The position numbers and the translations under genes are program-made. The notes beneath the pieces are model-generated. The model ran no database searches, was not told the DNA's origin, and worked only from the letters and a program-made list of their open reading frames with translations. A DNA stretch of 53,313 bases from Pseudobdellovibrionaceae bacterium (GTDB taxonomy: Bacteria; Bdellovibrionota; Bdellovibrionia; Bdellovibrionales; UBA1609): positions 1 through 53,313 of the forward strand of contig JANXMF010000142.1 of assembly GCA_025354795.1 (NCBI GenBank), given 5' to 3'. This document shows positions 36,528 to 42,417 of this stretch, one piece after another (position 1 is the first letter of the stretch; each line of letters starts with the position of its first letter).

Positions 36528-36582
36528 TGGTCCCCAGGACTGGACTTGAACCATCACGCCCTTGCGAGCGTCAGCCCCTCAA
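36528..36582 (-). pseudogene. 3' half of a split tRNA-Leu(GAG), from the anticodon loop to encoded CCA (attR-like)
   Basis: RC: TTGAGGG GCTGA CGCTCGCAAGGGCGTGATGGTTCAAGTCCAGTCCTGGGGACCA. Confidence 0.88.
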
Positions 36583-36818
36583 GCTAGTGTGTATACCAGT
36601 TTTGGAAAGACCTATAGCGTGGAGTCTGAAAAGGACAACTAAATTATTGAAATCACGTTATTTTTTACGTGGAGCATTGCGCTCAAAGAAGTTCTATCAA
36701 CTAGACTTTTGCTGGGTAAACAAGGCCCCGAAATAAAGTCCACTTTAAATTGTTATTTATGTTATATTTGTGAATAATGGTATTTATGCTATTTAAGCTG
36801 AAGCCCTTATGAAAGGAA

Positions 36819-37220
36819 TTGGCTTTGGAAATCGTCATTACCCAATGGGCTTTGTATTCATATTTGGAGATGAAGCACGACAAGACTTTCGCGGACCAGG
36901 AATACAAGCAGGTGATCCGCCCAGACGTTTTGCTGCTGAAGAATTACCCGAATGACCCAAAGTTTTCGAATGCAAAATTTTGGTCCATTGCGGAGTCGTC
37001 GGGAGCACGAATTCCTGATGGATACAAAATGAAATGGCATCAAGTGGGGAACGGCAAGGTTCAACTGCGGCTGCCAGTGGGAATTATGAATGAGGCTTAT
37101 TTGTGTGAGGCGTACGTGAAGGGCGATCCTAAGAAAGAAAAACGTAGGCTTGAGAAATTTCGAACTCACTTGGAGTTGATTCGAAAGAATCGGTTTATCG
37201 AGTGTGGGAGGTTAAAATGA
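36819..37220 (+). CDS. Putative toxin of a TA-like module (TTG start)
   Basis: Basic 133-aa ORF overlapping a downstream HTH gene by ATGA. Confidence 0.5.
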   Translation: MALEIVITQWALYSYLEMKHDKTFADQEYKQVIRPDVLLLKNYPNDPKFSNAKFWSIAESSGARIPDGYKMKWHQVGNGKVQLRLPVGIMNEAYLCEAYVKGDPKKEKRRLEKFRTHLELIRKNRFIECGRLK

Positions 37221-37708
37221 GAGCGCAGAAAATGACTCCTGACTTAAAGGTTGAGTTGATTGAGGTCGGCCACATGATGAACCAATCCGGGCTTCCTCAT
37301 AAATTTATCGCAGCCGCAGTTCAGACGGCCTTTGAATTTGAGGGTGTCTATAATCTTATGAAAATGTGGGTGGATGAAACTGATCAAAAAGAGCGAGATG
37401 AGATTGTCGCTGACATTCAAGATTTAATCGATGATTGCGCCCAGAAAGAAAAAGTCGAAGGGGTTTATATTCGGTTCGATGATCTTGAAACAATCGCTAA
37501 AGACGTTCGCAAATTTAAAGATAACCTGCGGATGACGATTGATAAAAATGGCGGTATTAAAAAGTTAGCTGAATTGACTGGTATTCCGCAGCCGTCGCTG
37601 TCTCGCTTCTTCGGAAGCGCAACCATGCCGAGGCGAGCAACGCTTCTCAAGATCGCTCGTGCCCTGAATCTCAGTCAGATTGAGATTGCGACTGAGTGGT
37701 CGCGATAG
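37217..37708 (+). CDS. XRE-family HTH antitoxin-like protein
   Basis: C-terminal HTH: GGIKKLAELTGIPQPSLSRFFGSATMPRRATLLKIARAL. Confidence 0.75.
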   Translation: MRAQKMTPDLKVELIEVGHMMNQSGLPHKFIAAAVQTAFEFEGVYNLMKMWVDETDQKERDEIVADIQDLIDDCAQKEKVEGVYIRFDDLETIAKDVRKFKDNLRMTIDKNGGIKKLAELTGIPQPSLSRFFGSATMPRRATLLKIARALNLSQIEIATEWSR

Positions 37709-38174: not shown

Positions 38175-38366
38175 ATGCTTGAATTGAAAGATTTTTATTT
38201 TGTTCGACATGGCGAAACGGATTCGAAAATAGAGCGGCGCGGAATGGGTCAGCAGGATATACCGTTAAATACACGCGGAATTGAACAGGCGCACATGGCA
38301 TCGAGGATTCTTGAGAAGGAATCCATCGAGCTGGTTTGTTTTAGTCCATTGCAGAGGTGGGAATAA
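38175..38366 (+). pseudogene. Truncated histidine phosphatase (phosphoglycerate mutase-like) N-terminus
   Basis: YFVRHGETDSKIERRGMGQQDIPLNTRGIEQAHMASRIL...CFSPLQRWE*. Confidence 0.75.
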
Positions 38367-39135
38367 TGGAAATAATTTCGCAGAAAAGGCTTGTCTGAAT
38401 CTTAACTTGAGCCTTCTCCAAACCGAGTTCAGTAAACAAGCTGTGATCACGTTCGGCGGGATTCCACTGCCGCAATGCCGAGGCGATACCATCCCATAAA
38501 AAAAGCACCGGTGCTACCGGAGCAATCCAACACCAGAGTATTCGCCGCATGCGCTGGGGTTGTCGTAAGTAAACCAATGGCAAGAGGAGAGCCGGAATGA
38601 CCGAACAGAGTACGAATAAAACAGAGGATGTTTTTTTGCGCAGGGGCTCCGCAATCATAATGTGAGCATTGTCCGCGAGGAGTGCCTTCAATAAGATGAT
38701 TCGATTCTCAAACTTCAGATGGTGAAAGGTGGCGGACAACAAGAGTAGTGAACGGTCGGAGTTCTTGGACCATGGTTTCGCCTTAAAATAATCAACGGAT
38801 TCAAATAGGGGCACCACGTTTCCTCCCGATCTTTGCTCAAGAGCGTGAAAGCTAGCGACATCCGGGTGTAGATCGCAAGGGTGCAGAGTTTTTGGCCAAT
38901 GATTTCCGGTTGGCAAGCGTTTTTGAACATGTCTGCTGATGGGCGCCGTGCCGGCCCCCAGTTCATAGAGTGCGGAGATTTTATATTCCTCACACAATTG
39001 AATAGCTTCGTTCGTTACAGAATCGTAATAGCGGCGAAATGGCTGGGAATTACCGACATCTAAAATTTCACGTAAGGTTTCTCTGAGCCCACGACCCAAC
39101 CAGGGCAAATCCATAAACTCAAATAACTGCGGCAT
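38341..39135 (-). CDS. SAM-dependent class I methyltransferase with C-terminal TM segments
   Basis: ALYELGAGTAPISRHVQ motif I; hydrophobic LFVLCSVIPALLLPLVYL and ILWCWIAPVAPVLFLWDGIA. Confidence 0.75.
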   Translation of the reverse strand: MPQLFEFMDLPWLGRGLRETLREILDVGNSQPFRRYYDSVTNEAIQLCEEYKISALYELGAGTAPISRHVQKRLPTGNHWPKTLHPCDLHPDVASFHALEQRSGGNVVPLFESVDYFKAKPWSKNSDRSLLLLSATFHHLKFENRIILLKALLADNAHIMIAEPLRKKTSSVLFVLCSVIPALLLPLVYLRQPQRMRRILWCWIAPVAPVLFLWDGIASALRQWNPAERDHSLFTELGLEKAQVKIQTSLFCEIISIIPTSAMD

Positions 39136-39145
39136 GCGTTCTCCC

Positions 39146-39187
39146 CCCAAGGTATGAGGTGGTAGTACCGTTCCATTACCTTGGGAG
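39146..39187 (-). promoter_or_regulatory. Hairpin overlapping the Shine-Dalgarno of the methyltransferase gene
   Basis: Minus strand: CTCCCAAGGTA-n22-TACCTTGGGGGGAGAACGCATG. Confidence 0.6.
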
Positions 39188-39228: not shown

Positions 39229-39693
39229 CTATGTAGCAAGGTTGGGATCTCGCTTCAAGAAGAAATCAAGAAAGTGGCGGCGAAGATGCGAATATCGCTG
39301 TTTCACAATTCCTTTGGTGGGGATCTCCGCATCCAATTGTTCATAAAATTCTTGGAGTAAGGCTGTGGAAATAAAAGCTGACTCGATTTTGAATCGGTCC
39401 CGCATCCGCTGTTCACGGTCTTGATTAAAGTTGAGTCGAGTGATCAGTTTTTCCAATTCTTCTTTTTGAAGATGGCCGTAGATTTTTCGAGGGAGCCGCT
39501 GGAAGGTTTTCTTGCCTGTGGCTGTGATTTTAATATTTCGTTTGATATAGAAAACCCCACCTTCGTCGGTGAGCATCCATCTATATTTGCGATCCGACTG
39601 GACCCATTTCAGGTTCAGCGCGCGTATTGCTTTTTCGAGTTGAGATTCGTCGATCATACCGTTACCCCTTTCGGAAGTTAGCGGTATAAACAC
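39229..39693 (-). pseudogene. Truncated tyrosine-recombinase-like (integrase N-terminal/core-binding) ORF
   Basis: ...SAFISTALLQEFYEQLDAEIPTKGIVKQRYSHLRRHFLDFFLKRDPNLAT* resembles an integrase core-binding domain; no catalytic domain; lies just 3' of the intact tRNA-Leu. Confidence 0.5.
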
Positions 39694-39759: not shown

Positions 39760-39846
39760 TGGTGCGCGCGAATGGACTTGAACCATCATGCCCTTGCGGG
39801 CGCCAGCCCCTCAAGCTGGTGCGTCTGCCAATTTCGCCACGCGCGC
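39760..39846 (-). tRNA. tRNA-Leu(GAG), intact, CCA encoded
   Basis: RC: GCGCGCGTGGCGAAATTGGCAGACGCACCAGCTTGAGGGGCTGGCGCCCGCAAGGGCATGATGGTTCAAGTCCATTCGCGCGCACCA; 7-bp acceptor stem, long variable arm. Confidence 0.97.
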
Positions 39847-39956
39847 ATATGTCTCATATCTTGGCATCTTGGTTACCAAAATCGAGTAATTTCCGTATAC
39901 CAATTTTTAGTCTAAGTTGTTAACTCCTTTAACTTTCCCGCACGAGCGACACAAAT

Positions 39957-39995
39957 CCCTCAAGCTGATGTGTCTGCCAATTTCGCCACCCGGGG
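39957..39995 (-). pseudogene. 5' half of the split tRNA-Leu(GAG) (attL-like)
   Basis: RC: CCCCGGGTGGCGAAATTGGCAGACACATCAGCTTGAGGG, then diverges (ATTTGTGTCGCTC...). Confidence 0.88.
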
Positions 39996-40177
39996 ATTTT
40001 TGAGTCGAATGACAATTTTTCTAGTGATATTCGCGTGTCTACCCGGTGTCAACAAGGGAGCCGATTTCGCAGGCCGTTACGCGGGTTTACAGTCGGGGCC
40101 GTGCCTCCAGGTAAGCTGCCCCGCTCGCAAGTGAGGGACTAACCTTTGGGCATCGCCCGCGGGTCATTAGAGCAGAG

Positions 40178-40297: not shown

Positions 40298-42417
<2,120 letters not shown>

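Follow-up and report, generated by a model that had tools for sequence, protein, structure and literature searches.

Temperate actinobacteriophages, among them Fionnbharth, Gaia and the Cluster L phages, were described in 2024 as establishing tRNA-dependent lysogeny, in which the integrase acts at a host tRNA gene through a short core and the element supplies a tRNA of the same isotype, the requirement for which was proven (PMC10865867). The authors speculated that a plasmid-borne tRNA could become the next attB, and asked how far the phenomenon extends (PMC10865867). In Sinorhizobium meliloti, the excerpted account of one report describes the replacement of host tRNA genes by phage-related sequences (PMC11476347). 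The ICEMh1/ICEPmu1-like ICEs of Pasteurellaceae insert into the anticodon loop of tRNA-Leu with an 11-bp repeat, and the ICEMh1 study noted a third, disrupted tRNA-Leu upstream of a full-length one, the latter being read by its authors as restored at attL (PMC6861422). Canonical tRNA islands (Islander; PMC4383910) use a tyrosine integrase and a tRNA target, commonly with an anticodon-centred crossover, and the target is regenerated at one end.

We analysed a stretch of 53,313 nucleotides from a Pseudobdellovibrionaceae bacterium (the window, contig C150), which belongs to an assembly of 3.15 Mb in 243 contigs that is 94% complete. The tRNA sequences, presumed attachment arms and host flank are the following:

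36528..36585, (-): displaced 3' half of the native tRNA-Leu(GAG) (BLAST q13-87, 88%; repeat D2)
36586..36693, (-): element left end, presumed attP P arm, in which ACTGGTATACACACTAG adjoins the core
39760..39846, (-): intact element-borne tRNA-Leu(GAG), acceptor GCGCGCG/CGCGCGC, CCA encoded (ARAGORN, Rfam RF00005)
39847..39956, (-): spacer of 110 bp with TTGGTA boxes, presumed attP P' arm
39957..39995, (-): orphan 5' half of the native tRNA-Leu(GAG) on the queA side, cut after TTGAGGG (BLAST to tRNA-Leu(GAG) genes q1-39, E 2.7e-8)
40024..40052, (-): native tRNA promoter-like site TTGACA-17-TATCAC, upstream of the orphan 5' half (z 2.7 against shuffles)
40298..41317, (+): queA, host flank, followed by tgt (Queuosine_synth 4.4e-93)

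ARAGORN reported tRNA-Leu(gag) at 39760-39846 (-) as the sole tRNA in the window, and this sequence scored 49.6 bits (E 5.5e-8) against the Rfam tRNA family (RF00005). The first-pass annotation had described a single intact tRNA inside the insert, about 110 bp from one half of a split gene, with the same GAG anticodon as that gene and a different acceptor stem. All of this was borne out: the distance to the orphan 5' half measures 110 bp, the intact tRNA and the disrupted host tRNA are of one isotype, Leu(GAG), and the acceptor stem GCGCGCG/CGCGCGC is unlike the CCCCGGG/CCTGGGG of the split gene, the intact gene and the rejoined native sequence being 85% identical. As to whether it is the sole GAG isoacceptor, which the annotation had proposed to check, the assembly, at 94% completeness, yielded no second GAG tRNA, although one could sit in the missing part; the remaining leucine tRNAs found there have the anticodons TAA, TAG and CAG. 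As a separate observation, tRNA-Leu(CAA) was not seen among the ARAGORN-checked tRNA loci of G000, an incomplete assembly in which part of the loci were typed.

The two native halves have in common a 10-bp core, AGCTTGAGGG, and joining them at this core produced a complete 87-nt tRNA-Leu(GAG) (ARAGORN), with a paired acceptor stem, CCCCGGG/CCTGGGG, containing one G-U, and the anticodon stem TCAGC/GCTGA. The repeat match D2 at the displaced 3' half reaches on to 36602, and GCTTGAGGG is present in four copies in the window, with 0.38 expected. In three genomes of the same genus (G001, G002 and G003) the tRNA-Leu(GAG) gene is uninterrupted and of the CCCCAGG/CCTGGGG type, and the rejoined native sequence shares 91% identity with this genus type. 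Beyond the window's 3' half, the sequence corresponds to the hairpin region that lies downstream of the gene in G001 and G002. The TTGACA-17-TATTTT ahead of the intact gene of G001 and G003 resembles the window's TTGACA-17-TATCAC, and tRNA-Leu(GAG) lies within about 1.5 kb of queA in many relatives. With flanks that on both sides match uninterrupted same-genus loci, the split gene is, by sequence comparison, the native one. A GCGCGCG-type tRNA in element-free relatives, which the first-pass annotation had named as counter-evidence, is absent; the same-genus relatives carry CCCCAGG/CCTGGGG. These matching native flanks also speak against an assembly chimera, an explanation to which a fragmented metagenome-type assembly with so many contigs lends some substance; the same arrangement was moreover present in eight other assemblies, including contigs of 3.26 Mb and 505 kb, and we regard the chance of such an artefact as next to negligible.

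Another explanation is that of an ordinary tRNA-targeting island, in which one junction restored the host tRNA and the remaining half is the residue that such insertions commonly leave. Such islands typically have their crossover in the anticodon loop and an intact tRNA close to one end, and the related-integrase islands of G014 and G119 do have an intact tRNA and a displaced 3' half with the same acceptor stem. At the window, however, the tRNA is rebuilt at neither insert junction: both native halves are orphaned and together make up one gene, the acceptor stem of the intact gene fits neither of them, and the 10-bp core, at an attB that overlaps the host tRNA gene, is too short to rebuild the gene. 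Orphaned halves that complete one another were likewise found at G094, G046, G037 and G036. Restoration by the element is thus ruled out by the two orphan halves at the window locus, while it may still hold for G014 and G119, and we consider the ordinary-island explanation very unlikely. The proposal of the first-pass annotation, that the host tRNA was not restored and a different, complete gene took its place, is well supported.

The two core copies enclose an insert of about 3.38 kb, whose left end is the displaced 3' half at 36528 and which contains these genes:

36819..37220, (+): 133-aa protein, possible toxin partner, overlapping the HTH gene
37202..37708, (+): 168-aa HTH protein, antitoxin/repressor-like (HTH_3 2.8e-5, above cut-off; weak addiction-module antidote match)
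38175..38366, (+): truncated histidine phosphatase (His_Phos_1 profile 1-55 of 194, E 2.9e-14)
38341..39150, (-): 269-aa protein with no Pfam match
39229..39693, (-): truncated tyrosine recombinase, N-terminal 154 aa, beside the intact tRNA

Over 141 aa, the 154-aa recombinase fragment shares 85% identity with the N-terminal end of a Phage_integrase protein of 411 aa in G014, and the catalytic part was not found anywhere else in the window. The left end of the element is 81-83% identical to those of the G014 and G119 elements, and the right end (tRNA and spacer) is 74% identical to locus L076 of G086 across 230 bp. No phage structural genes were recognised in the window element. The 133-aa protein had no match in Pfam, NCBIfam, PHROG or PADLOC; its gene forms an operon with the overlapping HTH gene (36819-37708, +), and the two look like a toxin-antitoxin pair within the element. 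As judged from these sequences, the insert is a decayed integrative element, and since the integrase catalytic domain is gone it is probably immobile now. The earlier suggestion that excision could regenerate the original tRNA is sound in principle, but such an event is unlikely now with an integrase that lacks its catalytic half.

We scanned 142 genomes of the order for two GAG D-arm/anticodon matches 144-216 bp apart. The pattern was present in 9/142 genomes, the window genome included, a count that is a lower bound given that the consensus patterns miss diverged orphan halves. In every one of the nine the upstream copy was an orphaned 5' half ending at TTGAGG(G), and the downstream copy was an intact tRNA-Leu(GAG) in eight; in the exception, G036, a second orphan half follows the first and a third copy starts at the contig end. 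The spacer between the orphan 5' half and the further tRNA-Leu(GAG) ranged from 105 to 177 bp across the recurrent loci. The integrases are of several types. The window has type A; in G094, G037 and G030 an integrase of 362 aa, type B, comes directly after the tRNA; G040 and G059 have type C, of 367 aa, and G046 has type D, of 465 aa. The post-cut sequences sort into classes that track these types. A displaced 3' half was located at a distance of 112 kb in G094 and of 28.8 kb in G046, whereas G037 and G036 each had theirs on a different contig; all four rejoined to a tRNA-Leu(GAG). The cores at four other loci are in the 6-8 bp class, and the core-adjacent attP arms form imperfect inverted repeats modestly above shuffles (five sites, p about 0.01).

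Two similar tRNA segments about 150 bp apart on one strand could also have arisen by tandem duplication of the tRNA, with decay of the upstream copy and an unrelated insertion nearby, and tandem tRNA-Leu(GAG) copies are known at L124 in Myxococcales and at L126 and L128 in Prolixibacter. This history would not account for upstream copies that end at TTGAGG(G) in 9/9 cases and not at random points, for orphan halves completed by displaced 3' halves at five loci and up to 112 kb off, or for classes of post-cut sequence that go with integrase types, and it is accordingly a highly improbable one. The Myxococcales and Prolixibacter pattern matches themselves were set aside as tandem pairs of tRNAs in a different arrangement. 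Also left out of the cases were G062, G117 and G120, which have an element-like tRNA and in which a native remnant was undetectable in the stretches fetched. The G062 locus (L105:15202-16188) carries a tRNA-Leu(GAG) of the GCCCGGG/CACTACC type, its congeners being mostly of the GTACG type; sequence resembling an integrase C-terminal remnant lies nearby, and a trace of the native gene was absent in 20 kb. In a Bacteroidetes MAG (CAILUD010000191.1, L127:6569-6814), and so in another phylum, an intact tRNA-Leu(GAG) lies about 110 bp beyond an orphan tRNA-Leu(GAG) 5' half that is cut at TTGAGGG, with an ilvA-like gene next and no integrase in 8 kb of sequence.

Among the sampled proteins of the G046, G040 and G094 elements we obtained replication, FtsK-like, DNA-transfer and defence matches, and neither capsid nor tail proteins. 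Relatives of the integrases were traced in phages, plasmids and viral contigs, and no unintegrated attP or element copy was found there. In G094 the tRNA halves are separated by 112 kb (G094:C1, about 424-536 kb; L151-L155, L077), and the genes noted in this stretch, for a family A DNA polymerase, a DUF3854 protein and proteins resembling FtsK and DNA-transfer proteins, are such as an integrated element like a large plasmid might carry. The G040 element (L078:7488-10676) encodes a type I restriction enzyme subunit, and the G014 element (L088:3031-6671) carries a CBASS-like set consisting of a cyclase, TRIP13 and a SAVED-HNH endonuclease.

Replacement of the resident tRNA-Leu(GAG) appears to be serial, a reading based on the fact that some cut resident tRNAs look element-borne. 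It is supported in G040, where 39 nt of the cut resident tRNA equal the 5' part of the element-borne tRNA of the window and a spacer of the element type lies ahead of this cut gene, and in G036, with its two consecutive orphan 5' halves; it is suggested in G119, where a short match to the element-A integrase-proximal sequence follows the displaced 3' half. One identical 87-nt tRNA was found in G086 and G119, which belong to one family, and in G037, which belongs to another, adjoined by differing native remnants in G086 and G037. That unrelated integrative elements of Bdellovibrionales converged on a whole tRNA-Leu(GAG) inside the attachment region, so that each insertion would kill the resident gene and install both a replacement and a new target, is a broader proposal that we judge to have an even chance of being correct; if true, it would amount to a ratchet by which a core tRNA gene is taken over repeatedly by mobile DNA and moved between bacterial families. 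We conjecture that the 40-bp direct repeat formed by the orphan half and the intact gene could later collapse by deletion to leave an ordinary-looking restored tRNA, and that this might account for G014 and G119. The other possibility for these two is a truly restoring attP, an alternative for which the phage pairs Boilgate/Fionnbharth and Omega/Gaia provide a precedent (PMC10865867).

Taken together, these results make it highly probable that an element with a tyrosine integrase split the host's single tRNA-Leu(GAG), that the element's own complete tRNA takes over, and that later elements can replace it. As the anatomy of the locus shows, the tyrosine integrase recombined the element at the 10-bp core in the anticodon loop of the host gene; with an attP devoid of the tRNA 3' part, the gene was not rebuilt at the junction, and the complete tRNA-Leu(GAG) of other ancestry is carried about 110 bp inside the element end. 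The element tRNA would then take over CUU/CUC decoding. With a whole tRNA on the element, a matching anticodon loop may suffice and a match to the acceptor stem may be unneeded, so that hosts with a different tRNA-Leu(GAG) could be entered, as the identical 87-nt tRNA in two families suggests. The newly installed tRNA would be a fresh target for later elements, and in the window genome, with an integrase lacking its catalytic half, the replacement is probably fixed.

With the sole GAG gene lost, dependence of the host on the element would follow. CUU and CUC make up 34% of the leucine codons in 21 long window ORFs. Broad wobble by a UAG tRNA relies on the cmo5U modification, and such decoding is unlikely here because no CmoA orthologue was found above cut-off in the window genome. 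Since no other GAG tRNA was found, CUU and CUC are in use and broad wobble is unlikely, the element tRNA is probably needed by the host. An evolved hostage or addiction strategy, as the first-pass annotation had framed it, can at most be inferred from this; selection for viable integration would explain the element tRNA without any addiction function. No promoter-like site was found in the window's 110-bp spacer, and read-through from the native promoter would suit the window element tRNA. Promoter capture was not supported as a general rule, with host-side promoters scoring low at several loci and candidate promoters in two spacers.

The anatomy of the tRNA-dependent integration that was proven in actinobacteriophages recurs in islands of Gram-negative Bdellovibrionales; their integrases are of several types, and some of the islands carry defence genes. 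This could explain sharp differences in a core tRNA gene among relatives, and it suggests a route for elements across families with different tRNA sequences. The signature of an orphan 5' half, a short spacer and an intact isoacceptor is searchable, and island finders that need regenerated targets may miss such loci.

Compared with canonical tRNA islands, the window shares the tyrosine integrase and the tRNA target, but its target stays split and replaced and is regenerated at neither junction, and its integrase, in contrast to that of an active island, is truncated. Like the ICEMh1/ICEPmu1-like ICEs, it combines insertion in a tRNA-Leu anticodon loop with a full-length tRNA-Leu and a disrupted copy upstream, although the anticodon is another one there. 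The S. meliloti case, as far as its excerpted account goes, is similar in that a host tRNA gene was swapped for an element-borne isoacceptor of other ancestry, and differs in that alphaproteobacterial phage-related sequences are concerned (PMC11476347). The closest resemblance in operation is to tRNA-dependent lysogeny, with which the loci share a tyrosine integrase (an N-terminal part in the window, intact at related loci), an attB located within a tRNA gene and an element-encoded tRNA of the disrupted isotype; in Fionnbharth, as here, the core is of 10 bp and does not rebuild the tRNA. The systems differ in that the elements are temperate phages there and non-phage islands in Bdellovibrionota here, that the tRNA is elsewhere in the phage genome (overlapping gene 37 in Fionnbharth) and here lies 105-177 bp from the core, that a measured promoter and proven dependence there stand against a dependence inferred here, and that replacement appears to be serial here. 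Because the locus operates as in tRNA-dependent lysogeny, yet the window contains no recognised phage gene, we file it as a variant of that system, the tRNA-replacing integrative elements of Bdellovibrionales, whose new features are non-phage islands in Bdellovibrionota, a tRNA inside the attachment region and an apparent serial turnover.
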